Positions 18,909-25,128 of a DNA stretch of 64,000 nucleotides are shown piece after piece (the stretch's first letter is position 1; each line of letters begins with the position of its first letter). The translations under genes were made by a program, and so were the position numbers. Source of the stretch: Rhizobium leguminosarum (GTDB lineage Bacteria > Pseudomonadota > Alphaproteobacteria > Rhizobiales > Rhizobiaceae); the NCBI RefSeq assembly GCF_001679785.1, contig NZ_CP016286.1:3222001-3286000 (forward strand), in the 5' to 3' direction. The notes below the pieces were generated by a model. It worked only from the letters and a program-made list of their open reading frames with translations, ran no database searches and had not been told where the DNA came from.

Positions 18909-21224
18909 TTACCGATGACGGCGCAGCATATGCACCTCAGCGCTCGGCTTGTGGTGGCCGGGCGGCAGCGTGAAATTGCCGAGCTGGCGATCCATTTCCA
19001 GGGCTTCGGTCGCCAGCCGGTGGATCGCCGCCGTCGTCTCCTCGACCATCGAGGCGTTCTGCTGCGTCATCGCGTCGAGTTCGGCAACGGCGCTATTGAT
19101 CTCGCGCAGCGTATTGGCCTCCTCGCGGGTCGCACTCATGATCTCGTTGATCTGCCCGTTGATCGCCTCGACATGGGCGCCGATGCCCGTCAGCGCGACG
19201 CCCGCTTTTTCCACCAGCGTAACGCCGCTTTCGACCTCATACGTCGATTTCTGCAGCAGGCTGGAAATCTCCTTGGCGGCACTCGATGAGCGCTGGGCCA
19301 GCTCGCGCACTTCCATGGCGACGACGGCGAAGCCCTTGCCGGATTCACCGGCGCGCGCCGCCTCGACGCCGGCATTGAGCGCCAGGAGGTTCGTCTGGAA
19401 GGCGATGTCGTCGATGACGGAGATGATCGTGTTGATCTGGCGCGAGGAGGCCTGGATTGCCTCCATCGCCGCGATCGTCTCGCGCATGATCTGGCCTGAG
19501 CCGGTCGTCTCCTTCTTGGCGTCGCGGGCGATGCGCTCGGCCTGTTCGGCCCGCTCGATCTGCCGGCGGACCGACTGTGTGATGGCGCTGATCGCAGTCG
19601 CCGTCTCGGTGATCGAGCCGGCCTGGCGCTCGGTGCGCCCGGCAAGTTCGTCGGCGCCGGTGCGCATCTCCTCGGAGCCGGCGCGCACCGCCATCGAGTT
19701 GCCGCCGATGGCCGTCATGGTTTCGCTGAGCGTCGCCAGCGCCTCGTTGAAATTGACGCGCAGGCTTTCGAGCTCGTTCGGGAAGCGGGTATCGATCTGA
19801 TAGGCGAGATCGCCGTTCGCCAGATGATGCAGGCCTTCGTCGAGCGCCTCGACCACCTGCTGCAGCGTCTTCGCCTCAGCCTCGCGCTCGGCAAGGTTCT
19901 GCTGACGGTCGTGCTCGGCCTGCAGGCGCGTCTCTTCGCTGGCGGCTTCGAGTTCGCGGCTTTCGATCAGCGAGTGGCGAAAGCGGTCGAGCGCATTGGC
20001 CATCGTGCCGATCTCGTCCTTGCGGTTCAGGCTGCCGATCTCGCTGTCGAGTTTGCCGTCGGCGACATCGCGGGTGACGCCGGCAAGCCGCGCAAGCGGC
20101 GAAAACAGCAAATTGGTGACGAGCCCGGTCGCGATCGCCATGACGACGAGCACGCCGATGCCGATCATCGTCAGCAGGGTGGCGATCTCGATCGAGCCGG
20201 CATTGAGCTCGCTCAACAGCACACTCTCGACCACGAGGAAGCGGTCGCCGCGATAGTCGATGCCGCGGACATAGGCGCGGGCCGCGCCGTCCGCCCTATC
20301 GAAATCGGCAACCGTCATCGTCGAACTGGCAAGCGCGCTCTTGATGAAGGTGAAGGGTGTCGCATCGAGCGTCGCAAGCTTACCGCTTCCGTCGAGACCG
20401 ATGGCGGAACCATCGCCGGAGACGATCGCCGCCCGCGCCGTGCTGCCCCGGACGATGCCCTTGGCAAGGATGCCGGAGACGATGTCGTCGCGCACCTTGA
20501 AAAGAATGATTCCCTTGGCCGCTCCGAGCTTAATGATCGGCACCGCATAGAAGATCGCCGATTTGCCGCTGGCGGCATCGACGCGAAGGCCGGAAAAGCC
20601 TGTCGGCGCGGCGTCATCGGTCGCCTTGGCGGTATTCTCGATCGCCTTGGCGAAAGCGATGCCGGCGCCGGTTGCCTTCCAGGCGTCCGACTTCAGGTTC
20701 TCGGCGAAGTCGTCTTCCTTCTTGTAGGAATAGAGCACGGTACCTTCGAGGTCGGCGATCAGCAGATCGCTGAAGGCGGTATCCTCAAGGTCGCGAGCGA
20801 CTTCGCCCTGTGTCTTCTCATGGTTCGAATAGTAAAAGCCGCTCGGCTCTTCCGGCTTCATGAGCTTCTCGCGCTGATCTGCCGGGTTGGGATTGCCCGA
20901 TATGAAAACCTTCTTCAGCTCGGCGCGGGCGTCGCCCGAGGTCTTCTCGATCGTCTTCCAGCCGCTCTTTAGGCTGGTGATCGACATCTGCAGCGCCTCG
21001 ATACGCGCGATGGAATTGGCCTGGTTTTCAAGCTGCGTCAGCTGATCCTGCAGCATGTCGCCGCGAAAGATCAGCACGCTTTCCTTGGCCTTCAGCGCCT
21101 GCTCGTCGGAAATGCGGCTGCTGGCGAAATAGGCAAGCACATCAATGACCGCGATCGACAGCACGGTCAGCAAAATGAATGTGGCGATGACCTTAAAGGA
21201 CAGGGATTGAAATCTCCGAGCCAT
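18909..21224 (-). CDS. Methyl-accepting chemotaxis protein with periplasmic sensor domain
   Basis: The start MARRFQSLSF at 21224 gives 771 residues. Two membrane segments (about 10-30 and 350-375) bracket a periplasmic Cache-like sensor domain of about 310 residues. HAMP follows (about 375-430), then a long coiled-coil and the signalling hairpin with [30 protein letters not shown]. The C-terminus (HMLRRHR) lacks an NWETF-type CheR/CheB tether. No other chemotaxis gene is adjacent, so it is an orphan receptor; the ligand is unknown. Confidence 0.95.
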   Translation of the reverse strand: MARRFQSLSFKVIATFILLTVLSIAVIDVLAYFASSRISDEQALKAKESVLIFRGDMLQDQLTQLENQANSIARIEALQMSITSLKSGWKTIEKTSGDARAELKKVFISGNPNPADQREKLMKPEEPSGFYYSNHEKTQGEVARDLEDTAFSDLLIADLEGTVLYSYKKEDDFAENLKSDAWKATGAGIAFAKAIENTAKATDDAAPTGFSGLRVDAASGKSAIFYAVPIIKLGAAKGIILFKVRDDIVSGILAKGIVRGSTARAAIVSGDGSAIGLDGSGKLATLDATPFTFIKSALASSTMTVADFDRADGAARAYVRGIDYRGDRFLVVESVLLSELNAGSIEIATLLTMIGIGVLVVMAIATGLVTNLLFSPLARLAGVTRDVADGKLDSEIGSLNRKDEIGTMANALDRFRHSLIESRELEAASEETRLQAEHDRQQNLAEREAEAKTLQQVVEALDEGLHHLANGDLAYQIDTRFPNELESLRVNFNEALATLSETMTAIGGNSMAVRAGSEEMRTGADELAGRTERQAGSITETATAISAITQSVRRQIERAEQAERIARDAKKETTGSGQIMRETIAAMEAIQASSRQINTIISVIDDIAFQTNLLALNAGVEAARAGESGKGFAVVAMEVRELAQRSSSAAKEISSLLQKSTYEVESGVTLVEKAGVALTGIGAHVEAINGQINEIMSATREEANTLREINSAVAELDAMTQQNASMVEETTAAIHRLATEALEMDRQLGNFTLPPGHHKPSAEVHMLRRHR

Positions 21225-21468
21225 GTACGACGAACCCCTTCTGAACGCACCTGCCAAGCGCGGGCACGCAGCGCATGCCTGATCAACTGGCCTATAAACA
21301 GAACATCGGGGGCTTAAATCCTCGCGAAAAGAAGCCCCCTCGTATTCGATGACTAGAATTCAGGCATCTGTTTTAATTCGCGGTAAATGGCGGGGCCGAA
21401 ATCCGGGAACGTTTTTGTTTTGTTCACATATCAATGGCAGTTATTTCGCAATGGCTATAGGTTGAACC

Positions 21469-21978
21469 ATGCAAAATACGATTCGCATCGTCGGTATCGA
21501 TCCCGGGCTTCGCCGCACCGGCTGGGGAATCATCGAGACATCAGGCAATTCCCTGCGGTTTGTGGCATCCGGAACCGTGACCTCCGATGGAGACATGGAC
21601 CTTGCCTCCCGCCTTTGCCAATTGCACGACGGCCTGGCGGAGATCGTCCACAGCTATAAGCCGGATGAGGCGGCCGTCGAACAGACCTTCGTCAACAAGG
21701 ATGCGGTGGCGACCCTGAAGCTTGGTCAGGCCCGCGGCATTGCCATGCTGGTGCCGGCGCGCGCCGGGCTGCCGGTCTCCGAATATGCCCCGAACGCCGT
21801 GAAGAAGGCCGTCATCGGCGTCGGCCATGGCGAAAAGCAACAGATCCACATGATGTTGAAGATCCTGATGCCGAAGGTCGAATTCAAGGGCAACGACGCC
21901 GCCGACGCCTTGGCGATCGCCATCTGCCATGCGCATAATCGCGGCAGCAACCGAATGCGGCAGGCATTGGCCGGATAG
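21469..21978 (+). CDS. ruvC: Holliday junction resolvase RuvC
   Basis: Dimeric endonuclease that cleaves Holliday junctions with RuvAB. The 169-residue product has the catalytic acidic set in order: [12 protein letters not shown] (Asp at about residue 9), [10 protein letters not shown] (Glu near 68) and [15 protein letters not shown] (two Asp near 141-144). A modest RBS precedes the ATG. It is first in a ruvC-A-B order that is interrupted by two toxin-antitoxin pairs. Confidence 0.98.
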
Positions 21979-21985
21979 CTTGTTC

Positions 21986-22018
21986 TTGACTTGTTCCATT
22001 GGTAAGGATAATTCTTAC
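21986..22018 (+). promoter_or_regulatory. Promoter and operator candidate of the first toxin-antitoxin pair
   Basis: A -35-like TTGACT at 21986-21991 and a -10-like ATAATT at 22008-22013 are 16 bp apart. The inverted repeat GTAAG-N7-CTTAC (22002-22006 and 22014-22018) overlaps the -10. An AT-rich autoregulatory operator over the promoter is expected for an AbrB-type antitoxin. A strong AAGGAG follows before the antitoxin ATG. Confidence 0.55.
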
Positions 22019-22035
22019 TTTGAAGGAGCAACAAG

Positions 22036-22287
22036 ATGCGAGTTACGTCCAAAGGCCAGGTCACCATTCCTCGTGATCTCAGGGAACTTGTCGGCATCGA
22101 GGCCAACAGCGAGGTCATTTTCTCGATAGAGGGCGGCAAGCTCGTTCTCTCGCCGAAGAACGGCAAGCAGGAGATCGAGGATCGGGGCCGCCTGGATCGT
22201 TTTATACAGACGATCCGTCGTCTCGAGGGCACTGGCGATCAGGAGATTGATGCCGAAGACCTTATGTCGATGACCCGTGATCGCTGA
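22036..22287 (+). CDS. AbrB/VapB-type antitoxin (pair 1, between ruvC and ruvA)
   Basis: An 83-residue protein. The N-terminus MRVTSKGQVTIPRDLRELVGI is the swapped-hairpin SpoVT/AbrB DNA-binding domain (about 1-45). The rest is a charged tail that would wrap the toxin (QEIEDRGRLDRFIQTIRR). It is preceded by AAGGAG and an AT-rich promoter with an inverted repeat, and its stop codon overlaps the toxin start by 1 base (TGATG). It should neutralise the PIN toxin and repress the operon. Confidence 0.9.
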   Translation: MRVTSKGQVTIPRDLRELVGIEANSEVIFSIEGGKLVLSPKNGKQEIEDRGRLDRFIQTIRRLEGTGDQEIDAEDLMSMTRDR

Positions 22288-22700
22288 TGGCCACACTTGT
22301 CGATACGAACATACTTGTCGATCTGGCCGTGGTCGGTTCGGACTGGCACGGTTGGTCGCGTCGAAAGATGCTTGACGTCTTCAAAGACGGTCCTGTCCTC
22401 ATAAACCCGATCATCTATTCCGAATTTTCCGTTCGGTACGACGACGTGGACGAAGTCGATCGACTGCTGCCGCAGGAAGAATTCCGCCGCGAAAATCTGC
22501 CTTGGCCGGCTGCATTCGCCGCTGCTGCGGCCTTCCGGCTTTACCGTCGCGCCGGCGGTGGGCGCGAACGGGTATTGCCCGATTTCTTCATCGGCGCGCA
22601 TGCGGCGATAAGGGGCTACAGAATTTTGACCCGCGATCCCAGCGGATACCGCTCCTATTTCCCCTCCGTTGACCTTATAACCCCCGAAACGCATCCTTGA
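22287..22700 (+). CDS. PIN-domain (VapC-type) ribonuclease toxin (pair 1)
   Basis: A 137-residue PIN-domain protein with the four expected acidic residues: Asp6 in VDTNIL, Glu46 in IYSEFS, Asp99 in LPDFFIGAHA, and Asp117 in TRDPSGY. VapC-type toxins cut specific tRNAs or rRNA in a Mg-dependent way; the target here is unknown. The gene ends 15 bp before the ruvA start, so the pair occupies the ruvC-ruvA junction and ruvA may be read from its promoter. Confidence 0.9.
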   Translation: MATLVDTNILVDLAVVGSDWHGWSRRKMLDVFKDGPVLINPIIYSEFSVRYDDVDEVDRLLPQEEFRRENLPWPAAFAAAAAFRLYRRAGGGRERVLPDFFIGAHAAIRGYRILTRDPSGYRSYFPSVDLITPETHP

Positions 22701-22715
22701 GAGAGACCACGACCC

Positions 22716-23330
22716 ATGATCGGCAAGCTGAAAGGCACCATAGACGAGATCGGCGAAGACTATGTGCTCGTCGATGTGCACGGCGTCTGCTACGTCGCCT
22801 ATTGCTCGGCCCGCACCCTGTCGAAAATCGGCTCGGCAGGCGAGGCCTGCGTGCTGTTCATCGAGACCTATGTGCGCGAGGACCAGTTGAAGCTCTTCGG
22901 TTTCATGACGGCACTGGAGCGGGAATGGTTCAATCTGCTCCAGAGCGTCCAAGGCGTCGGCGCCAAGGTAGCGCTCGCCGTGCTCTCGACGCTGACGCCA
23001 GGCGAACTTGCCAATGCGATTGCCCTGCAGGACCGCGCCGCCGTCTCGCGTGCGCCGGGCGTCGGTCCCAAAGTGGCGATGCGCCTCGTCACCGAGCTCA
23101 AGAACCGAGCGCCGGCCTTTGCCGGGGAAGCGATCAATATCGCCCTCAAGCAGGAACTCGGCGAAGGGGTCGCGGCCGCGCCTGTCGCCGATGCGGTTTC
23201 CGCGCTGACCAACCTCGGCTATTCCCGCGACCAGGCGGCAAATGCGATTGCCGCGGCAATGAAGACGGCCGGCGAAGGTGCCGACAGCGCCAAGCTGATC
23301 CGGCTAGGGTTGAAGGAACTGGCGCGGTAG
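22716..23330 (+). CDS. ruvA: Holliday junction branch migration protein RuvA
   Basis: Tetrameric junction-binding subunit of RuvAB. The 204-residue product begins [12 protein letters not shown], has the OB-fold N-terminal domain, two helix-hairpin-helix segments ([18 protein letters not shown] and [17 protein letters not shown], about 70-125), and a C-terminal domain III that contacts RuvB ([13 protein letters not shown]). Length and motifs are normal. It is flanked on both sides by toxin-antitoxin pairs. Confidence 0.98.
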
Positions 23331-23360
23331 AGTAGGATGAATTGTCATTTTTTCCGCTGA

Positions 23361-23390
23361 TTGACAAATTTTCCAACCAACACATGAAAA
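23361..23390 (+). promoter_or_regulatory. Promoter candidate of the second toxin-antitoxin pair
   Basis: A perfect -35 hexamer TTGACA lies at 23361-23366 in an AT-rich stretch, with -10-like sequence near 23384-23390 (only a weak match). The preceding AATTGTCA (about 23340-23347) is a near inverted copy of TGACAAATT. This region between ruvA and the antitoxin is clearly richer in A+T than the ruv genes. Confidence 0.4.
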
Positions 23391-23405
23391 TAGGATTTCT
23401 GTTCA

Positions 23406-23690
23406 ATGCGGGGAGAATTTACGCTTTCACCCAAAGGCCAGATAACGCTTCCGAAAGAGCTCCGGGACACGCTCGGCCTTCAGCCCGGCGATCAGCTTGT
23501 TTTCTCCATCATCGATGGAGAGGTCGTGATTACACCGAAATCGATCAACTTCAATGATCTCGCCGGCCTTCTGGGATCGCCTCCAAATGGTCGTGCTTCC
23601 CTGGAGGAGATCGACGCAACCGTCACCGACGCTGCGGGCAGCGATGTGGTCAACGAAGCCACGCGGTCGAAATCGGATGTAGCGGCATGA
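23406..23690 (+). CDS. AbrB/VapB-type antitoxin (pair 2, between ruvA and ruvB)
   Basis: A 94-residue protein with an N-terminal AbrB/SpoVT DNA-binding domain (FTLSPKGQITLPKELRDTLGL, then QPGDQLVFSI) and a C-terminal tail rich in Asp, Ser and Ala. It is not a close copy of the first antitoxin, so this is probably a separate acquisition and not a tandem duplication. Its last codons overlap the toxin start by 4 bp (ATGA). Confidence 0.88.
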   Translation: MRGEFTLSPKGQITLPKELRDTLGLQPGDQLVFSIIDGEVVITPKSINFNDLAGLLGSPPNGRASLEEIDATVTDAAGSDVVNEATRSKSDVAA

Positions 23691-24091
23691 TGGCCTATGG
23701 CTTGGATACAAACGTCCTGCTGAGGCTCATCGTCGACGATGATCCAGAGCAAAGGGCGGCCGCCCTGAAATTCGGTGAAGGCATCGGCAGGGATTATCGT
23801 GGATTTCTCTCCTTGCTGAACCTCTTGGAACTGGATTGGGCGTTGCGCGCACGGTTCGGCTTCAAGAAAAAGGATGTTGTCGAGGCAATCGGCAAGTTGA
23901 CACGCGTCAGGGGATTGGACATCGAGAACCAGACCCTCGTTATCAAGGCCCTGAGGGCCGTGGAAACGCGAAACGCCGATTTTGCCGATGCCTTGATCGG
24001 CTACCGCGCCGCGGATGAGGGATGCCAGGCGACCAAGACATTTGACCGGCACGCGTTCAAGACCGTGCCAGGTATGGAGCTTCTTTCATGA
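23687..24091 (+). CDS. PIN-domain (VapC-type) ribonuclease toxin (pair 2)
   Basis: A 134-residue PIN-domain protein with Asp7 in [10 protein letters not shown], Glu48 in LLELDWAL, Asp98/Asp101 in [10 protein letters not shown] and Asp120 in TFDRHA. That is the full acidic pocket expected of an active ribonuclease. It differs clearly from the pair-1 toxin. Its stop codon overlaps the ruvB start (ATGA at 24088-24091), so ruvB translation is probably coupled to translation of the toxin. Confidence 0.9.
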
Positions 24092-25128
24092 GCGAATCCG
24101 CCCGCCTGATATCGCCGGAAAAGCGGGGCGAAGACCTTGATATCACGTTGCGCCCGCAATCGCTGGACGAGTTCACCGGCCAGGCGGAAGCGCGCGCCAA
24201 TCTCAAGGTCTTCATCGAGGCGGCGAAAAACCGCGGCGAAGCGCTGGACCATGTGCTCTTCGTCGGGCCGCCCGGCCTCGGTAAGACGACGCTGGCGCAG
24301 ATCATGGCCAAAGAGCTCGGCGTCAACTTTCGCTCGACGTCGGGCCCTGTTATCGCCAAGGCCGGCGATCTCGCTGCCCTGCTCACCAATCTCGAGGAGC
24401 GCGACGTGCTCTTCATCGACGAAATCCATCGCCTCAATCCGGCCGTCGAGGAAATCCTCTATCCGGCCATGGAAGATTTCCAGCTCGACCTCATCATCGG
24501 GGAAGGCCCTGCCGCTCGCTCGGTGAAGATCGACCTGTCGAAATTCACGCTGGTGGCGGCCACCACCCGCCTCGGCCTGTTGACGACGCCGCTGCGTGAC
24601 CGCTTTGGCATTCCGGTGCGCCTGAGCTTCTACACCGTCGAGGAGCTGGAACTGATCGTGCGCCGTGGCGCGCGGCTGATGAACCTGCCGATCACCGAGG
24701 AGGGCGCCCGCGAGATCGCAAGACGCGCCCGCGGCACCCCGCGCATCGCCGGCCGGCTGCTGCGGCGCGTGCGCGATTTCGCCGAGGTGGCAAGGGCGGA
24801 AGCCGTCACCCGCGAGATCGCCGACGAGGCGCTGACCCGCCTGCTGGTCGACAATGTCGGCTTCGACCAGCTCGACAAACGTTACCTCAACATGATCGCC
24901 GTCAATTTCGGCGGCGGTCCAGTCGGCATCGAAACCATTGCCGCCGGCCTTTCCGAGCCGCGCGACGCGATCGAGGACATCATCGAGCCCTACATGATCC
25001 AGCAAGGTTTCATCCAGCGCACGCCACGCGGCCGTGTTCTGACCGCAATCGCGTGGAAACATCTGGGAATGCAACCGCCCAAGGATATGGAGGCTGCGCA
25101 GTTCCGGCTGTTCCAGGAGGACAACTGA
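24088..25128 (+). CDS. ruvB: Holliday junction helicase motor RuvB
   Basis: AAA+ hexameric motor that drives branch migration. The 346-residue product has Walker [10 protein letters not shown] (about 61-69), Walker [10 protein letters not shown], sensor 1 (LVAATTRLG), the arginine finger region (PLRDRFGI), sensor 2 ([16 protein letters not shown]) and a winged-helix C-terminus (IQRTPRGR). The length is normal. Its ATG overlaps the stop of the second PIN toxin; the next gene starts immediately at its stop. Confidence 0.98.

Follow-up and report, generated by a model that had tools for sequence, protein, structure and literature searches.

Organisation of the ruv locus

The 64,000-nucleotide stretch of Rhizobium leguminosarum contig NZ_CP016286.1 analysed here (positions 3,222,001 to 3,286,000, referred to as the window) contains the repair genes ruvC, ruvA and ruvB, with a different toxin-antitoxin pair of the VapBC type inserted at each of the two internal junctions. 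The order is ruvC, pair 1 (vapB1-vapC1), ruvA, pair 2 (vapB2-vapC2) and ruvB, every gene being intact and on the forward strand, just as a first-pass annotation of the window had read it. In both pairs the gene for an AbrB-type antitoxin lies upstream of, and on the same strand as, that for a PIN-family toxin, which it overlaps by 1 base pair (bp) in pair 1 and by 4 bp in pair 2. There are 22 PIN matches in the 8.57 Mb genome, two of these within the ruv locus. The features, numbered from the first letter of the window, are as follows.

21411..21425, + strand: near-LexA box GTTTTTGTTTTGTTC upstream of ruvC, with 1 mismatch to GTTCN7GTTC
21469..21978, + strand: ruvC (PF02075, 154 bits; TIGR00228)
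21982..21996, + strand: perfect LexA box GTTCTTGACTTGTTC, 3 bp past the ruvC stop, matching GTTCN7GTTC
21986..21991, + strand: -35-like TTGACT within the LexA box, identified by eye and not called by an automated scan
22007-22012, + strand: candidate -10 GATAAT, identified by eye, with a spacer of 15 from TTGACT
22002..22018, + strand: imperfect palindrome GTAAGGATAATTCTTAC, candidate VapB1 operator across the candidate -10
22036..22287, + strand: vapB1, AbrB/MazE-fold antitoxin 1, 83 amino acids (Pfam MazE_antitoxin)
22287..22700, + strand: vapC1, PIN toxin 1, 137 amino acids, type T1 (Pfam PIN, AlphaFold)
22716..23330, + strand: ruvA (TIGR00084)
23361..23366, + strand: -35-like TTGACA ahead of vapB2, where an exact LexA box was not found
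23406..23690, + strand: vapB2, AbrB/MazE-fold antitoxin 2, 94 amino acids (Pfam MazE_antitoxin)
23687..24091, + strand: vapC2, PIN toxin 2, 134 amino acids, type T3, its stop overlapping the ruvB start (ATGA)
24076..24079, + strand: GGAG in the tail of vapC2, the likely ribosome-binding site of ruvB
24088..25128, + strand: ruvB (NF000868, TIGR00635)

Variation in cassette content between genomes

RuvC, RuvA and RuvB were located in 148 genomes of the genus, and both junctions were read in 147, the window included; G127, in which ruvA and ruvB were not found at a contig end, was left out. The ruv operons of this genus are normally interrupted. An intact cassette, which here means any AbrB match together with a PIN match no shorter than 120 amino acids, is found at the ruvC-ruvA junction in 110 of the 147 genomes, with a further two broken and 35 junctions empty; in two of the 110 the antitoxin frame is just 55 or 59 amino acids long (L111, L096). 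At the ruvA-ruvB junction, 38 genomes carry an intact cassette, three a broken one and 106 no recognised gene. Cassettes are intact at both junctions in 30 genomes and both junctions are empty in just 27, hence the arrangement is not rare, and the supposition that most rhizobial ruv operons are contiguous is unsupported. The first-pass annotation had named wide conservation of the cassette order as a finding that would refute its proposal; this is partly the case, pair 1 being widespread and pair 2 patchy.

The sizes of the junctions are bimodal in the genus. The ruvC-ruvA gap measures 12-77 bp in the 35 genomes where it is empty and 546-762 bp, mostly about 725-760 bp, where a cassette is present. 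Similarly, between ruvA and ruvB the gap spans 66-172 bp if no gene is recognisable and 706-758 bp if a cassette is present; three genomes have a gap of 231-265 bp with a toxin fragment inside it, and in G071 and G114 it extends to 1568 bp and holds two AbrB-PIN pairs in tandem. The tandem pairs of G071 (locus L131) are of types T4 and T5, and in those of G114 (L174) one toxin is broken by a stop.

Beyond these genomes, 75 named loci were retained from 80 fetched by RuvB similarity, L260, L262, L268, L272 and L276 being dropped for incomplete ruv hits. Both junctions are empty in 31, the first alone is occupied in 24, the second alone in eight and both in eight; the remaining four (L264, L271, L280 and L228) have other content at a ruv junction, with no recognised PIN or AbrB gene. 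Cassettes were found in loci of Ciceribacter, Shinella, Martelella, Mesorhizobium, Nitratireductor and Agrobacterium bohemicum, and none in the sampled loci of Bradyrhizobium, Brucella, Bartonella and Phyllobacterium. Other families of the class were sampled through 29 loci, the best among 103 further RuvA-positive genomes, and neither cassette family was detected in these; their measurable gaps do not exceed about 74 bp, save for one ruvC-ruvA gap of 452 bp, and ruvB was not found in two of them.

Junction-specific toxin families

Cluster, tree and box comparisons were made on 206 non-identical entries. Fifteen of the 75 named loci are identical in their ruv genes to existing entries, and these, along with a duplicate (L124), were left out of the tree counts. 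Clustering at 60% identity divides the 179 intact cassette toxins of the 206 entries into 17 groups, and no cluster is shared by the two junctions, 128 toxins being found solely between ruvC and ruvA and 51 solely between ruvA and ruvB. Among the ten largest clusters, types from the same junction are 33-55% identical and types from different junctions 13-18%. All 405 cassette-matching open reading frames lie on the same strand as the ruv genes. The clusters of the window's two toxins, which belong to different PIN families, have a mean identity of 18%; the two pairs are unrelated, and the suggestion that they are separate acquisitions is upheld.

All four proteins exceed the relevant Pfam cut-offs (MazE_antitoxin, 45.5 and 47.0 bits; PIN, 31.9 and 36.3 bits). 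The PIN acids of toxin 1 (D6, E46, D99 and D117) are kept in 128, 127, 123 and 127 of its 128 homologues, respectively, and those of toxin 2 (D7, E48, D101 and D120) are each kept in all 51. The earlier view that the four proteins are intact is upheld. The AlphaFold model of toxin 1 (predicted local distance difference test score, pLDDT, of 95.1) has VapC proteins as its best structural matches in the PDB, with template modelling (TM) scores of 0.72-0.74 for the top four and 3zvk, VapBC2 of Rickettsia felis, as the best of all, which supports a VapC fold for the modelled protein. Toxin 2 superposes weakly (TM 0.49, root-mean-square deviation 11), despite a confident model (pLDDT 96.7). Single-sequence searches of the PDB returned no match for either toxin, although profile searches did; that with toxin 2 matches the chain PcrIIC1, whose description as 'PIN-type' is the reading of the present analysis. 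In the four main types, the median ratios of non-synonymous to synonymous substitution (dN/dS), 0.055-0.104 for toxins and 0.075-0.142 for antitoxins, indicate purifying selection on both; the cassette range resembles the value for RuvA (0.074), those for RuvC and RuvB being 0.048 and 0.038.

Close relatives often differ in the type of cassette that they carry, or have none. Mapped onto a tree of the ruv genes, cassette presence in the genus requires at least 17 changes at the first junction and 15 at the second; with all types distinguished, these minima rise to 45 and 26. Across all entries, first-junction presence requires 30 changes, compared with 53-66 in 50 shuffles. Since divergence at fourfold sites within a type tracks that of the ruv genes on average for close pairs, the cassettes look to be mostly old residents; some may have moved independently of the ruv genes, and among 2928 pairs in four types the cassette distance is less than a third of the ruv distance in 12 and more than twice it in 29. 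The contents of the junctions are more than chance, because they recur across the genus and are under purifying selection.

A LexA box accompanying the first-junction cassette

The sequence GTTCN7GTTC has been described as the LexA box of Caulobacter (PMC9578287, PMC12700426, in the text available). In a scan for exact matches that began 70 bp ahead of the ruvC stop, 125 of the 128 intact cassettes at the first junction gave a box, as did one of 73 empty junctions (L244), which shares the opening 19 bp of a cassette leader. Five intact cassettes had seemed to be without a box; the ruvC stop is shifted in two of these, leaving three that truly have none. Within the genus alone, the counts are 109 of 110 intact and none of 34 empty ruvC-ruvA junctions. 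The association persists among 19 phylogenetically independent pairs, where, in a narrower scan interval, the box follows the cassette in 16.7, runs against it in 0.3 and does not differ in 2.0 (median p 3e-5). The possibility that the box is a long-standing ruvAB promoter unconnected with the cassette was considered and set aside, because empty ruvC-ruvA junctions lack it.

The leaders of 20 relatives of pair 1 from outside ruv loci, hand-picked from the non-ruv matches listed, were checked over a fixed stretch of 280 bp. An exact box was present in none of the 20, in either orientation, and a VapB-type palindrome in 19, which indicates that the box goes with the ruv location. These relatives (L289-L308) mostly have a GTAATAC...GTATTAC palindrome, with arms spaced more widely than in the ruv copies of type T0. 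In 54 of 55 box-bearing leaders of type T1 the palindrome has 6-8 of its 8 pairs matched, 53 being at an identical offset. An inverted-repeat search of the leader of pair 2 in the window gave weak or short arms only. As a positive control, the lexA gene of this genome has an exact box, in reverse orientation, about 50 bp upstream of its start. In 66 of 75 loci the 250 bp preceding ruvC contain a near-box, with at most one mismatch, mostly as the GTTTTTGTTTTGTTC motif about 58 bp before the gene; according to the text of a review, the ruvCAB operon of Caulobacter is upregulated on DNA damage (PMC9578287).

Further sites of this kind were observed away from the junctions. An exact match to GTTCN7GTTC, GTTCAGAAGGGGTTC, lies at 21232-21246 on the minus strand of the window, at the start of a divergent gene (18909-21257, minus strand) that is presumably a chemotaxis receptor. 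It is also present in an R. laguerreae locus (L277), with similar sites in L211 and L213, and may reflect either chance or a link to the SOS response. The sequence GTTCTTGNNNTGTTC has just two other sites in the genome, one of them (L309; G000:C1:804-818, minus strand) near the start of an open frame; the gene close by looks to be moaB.

Toxin remnants at the second junction

Cassette loss has left recognisable sequence in many of the 106 gene-less ruvA-ruvB gaps of the genus. All 37 gaps longer than 83 bp (100-172 bp) end with a toxin C-terminus, in frame (for example KRIPGMEPLT) and with its stop overlapping the ruvB ATG, compared with one of the 69 shorter gaps. At the level of DNA, 36 of the 37 and two shorter gaps match the 3' end of an intact cassette over 21-148 bp. 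In 48 of the 51 intact second-junction cassettes the last 4 bp of the toxin gene run into the start of ruvB, and nearly all of the intact and remnant junctions displayed have GGAG or GGAA within the last codons of the toxin. Ahead of ruvA, 3' toxin remnants of 48-66 bp are found in G109, G123, G054 and G085, and three empty ruvC-ruvA junctions retain a 16-bp piece of the cassette leader instead. Because toxin-end and leader remnants persist, many gene-less junctions are scars left by lost cassettes; what stays at the second junction is the piece adjoining ruvB. The proposal that deletion of a cassette would harm ruv expression is borne out in part only: whole cassettes are absent from many genomes, but the tail is kept throughout the longer gaps.

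Similarity to known systems

The pairs resemble AbrB-type VapBC systems such as those of Shigella flexneri, Rickettsia felis (VapBC2) and others of solved structure in the overlap of antitoxin and PIN genes, the conserved acids and, for pair 1, the palindrome before vapB. The identity of toxin 1 to the solved VapCs is low, at 12-25%, and the placement in the ruv operon and the LexA box of pair 1 are features of the present locus. In Sinorhizobium meliloti, VapC10 is reported to cleave two tRNASer (PMC10945364, in the text available). A regulatory parallel is higBA-higX of Caulobacter crescentus, where, in the available text, the toxin-antitoxin promoter is under LexA as well as the antitoxin, and drives most of the expression of the downstream gene (PMC13384398); HigBA, however, belongs to another toxin-antitoxin family, and its downstream gene encodes a transcription factor. 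The toxin gene of Escherichia coli SymE/SymR is likewise repressed by LexA (PMC1891008), but with control by a cis-encoded antisense RNA, and the portion seen does not describe it as part of a recombination operon.

The arrangement is not wholly new, as a vapB-vapC pair (RL3987-RL3988) directly upstream of ruvA-ruvB has been published for R. leguminosarum 3841 (RL3987-RL3990; PMC11406972). That account concerns one strain and one pair, and the text seen does not mention a LexA box, the second junction, a comparison between genomes or remnants. Nor did the titles and abstract openings listed in searches of the literature, of which many subscription papers lay outside the coverage, include any on toxin-antitoxin pairs as recurrent parts of ruv operons or on a LexA box there. 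In the same study, as far as its text was available, a 22-gene core attachment set from insertion sequencing (INSeq) of strain 3841 includes vapB, vapC, ruvA, ruvB and recA, and ruvC is not in the table (PMC11406972). The present analysis would read this as a polar effect on ruvAB, transcribed from a promoter downstream of ruvC, an interpretation that the authors do not offer in the text seen: with vapBC and ruvAB inside the table and ruvC outside it, the set fits one unit whose promoter follows ruvC.

Proposed regulation and alternative explanations

The explanation that seems probable is that LexA and VapB both repress vapBC1-ruvA(B) as one damage-inducible unit, assembled from cassettes subject to loss and replacement. 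The two ruv junctions are filled by unrelated VapBC cassettes of the AbrB type, with one family at each. With a LexA box over the -35 and a VapB-type palindrome over the candidate -10, the promoter of pair 1 is probably SOS-inducible and doubly repressed, and would drive vapBC1, the downstream ruvA, and vapBC2-ruvB. DNA damage would then cause antitoxin, toxin and branch-migration helicase to rise together, and free toxin might cut RNA and slow growth during repair by RuvAB. Because vapC2 contains the likely start signals of ruvB, the two genes overlapping in ATGA, ruvB is probably coupled to vapC2 in translation. Cassettes would have been lost and replaced over time, with second-junction remnants retaining a toxin tail that may serve ruvB. 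That toxin dosage is tied to DNA repair, as had been suggested, is likely on the strength of the LexA box, better evidence than the first-pass annotation had.

Several points weigh against this. A -35-like sequence does lie upstream of each pair, as previously noted, but an automated sigma-70 scan called no promoter at either cassette, and the 15 bp spacer of the candidate -10 of vapB1 is short. Three intact pair-1 cassettes have no box, no exact box occurs in the ruvA-ruvB junctions of the 206 entries, so that pair 2 is without one, and recA has one-mismatch sites only. In the 3841 INSeq data, vapB has fewer than six insertion sites, and the absence of ruvC from the table may result from the authors' filtering (PMC11406972, in the part seen). 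The motif by which toxin tails were counted was worded after the tails had been seen, and the 37 tail-bearing gaps are mostly tree neighbours, mostly of one clade, implying few loss events; as 68 of the 69 short gaps have no tail motif, ruvB can evidently manage without a toxin tail, which is not obligatory. The tree used to count gains and losses was built from the ruv genes themselves. Lastly, LexA binding, promoter activity, toxicity and coupling are deduced from sequence.

The pairs could instead be selfish hitchhikers, addiction modules that persist at an always-transcribed site, with the LexA box incidental, or left by a former ruvAB promoter, and without consequence for the toxin. Such behaviour would accommodate the patchy distribution (a minimum of 17 changes within the genus at the first junction and 15 at the second), the several unrelated allele types at each junction, the relatives on plasmids of many proteobacteria and the remnants of cassette loss. 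It is nevertheless considered rather unlikely, as the box is tied to the cassette and not to ruvA, being all but constant in intact junctions of the genus and absent both from empty ones and from the 20 non-ruv relatives examined, and as neither strict sorting by junction nor a single orientation would be expected of random hitchhikers. Less likely still is that the pairs have been domesticated, being no longer toxic and kept just as the promoter and translation leader of ruvA and ruvB. The retention of toxin tails as a ruvB leader once the remainder was lost would agree with this, as would the grouping of vapC insertions with those in ruvA and ruvB by INSeq, and the apparent retention of vapB in the input library, where it seems not to have been filtered out as required (PMC11406972, in the part seen); but the catalytic acids are conserved, without exception at the second junction, and the low dN/dS of the toxins is hard to explain by a leader function alone. 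Ordinary repeated insertion of common VapBC pairs, the link to ruv or the SOS response being no more than chance, can draw on the number of PIN matches in the genome, a sign that such pairs are common. It is very improbable, being already contradicted by the complete sorting of the 179 cassette toxins by junction, and at odds with the lack of either family in the 29 loci examined from other families and with the conserved LexA box.

Implications

Taken more broadly, there is perhaps an even chance that, across Rhizobiaceae and relatives, the genes for the Holliday-junction helicase have come to use a toxin-antitoxin pair gated by LexA as their promoter module, such that damage would switch on antitoxin, growth-slowing RNase and RuvAB as one unit, and the helicase would depend on toxin-gene sequence both for transcription (pair 1) and for start signals (pair 2), within a two-slot locus where divergent cassettes alternate, each junction with its own family.

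The question of why chromosomes keep many VapBC pairs is made testable by such a fixed site, where a pair and its SOS-type box come and go together among close relatives, ahead of a core repair enzyme. For damage tolerance, ready comparisons are offered by natural strains that have the cassette, lack it or keep remnants of it, and the retained toxin tails suggest a route by which an inserted module may leave host gene expression dependent upon it.

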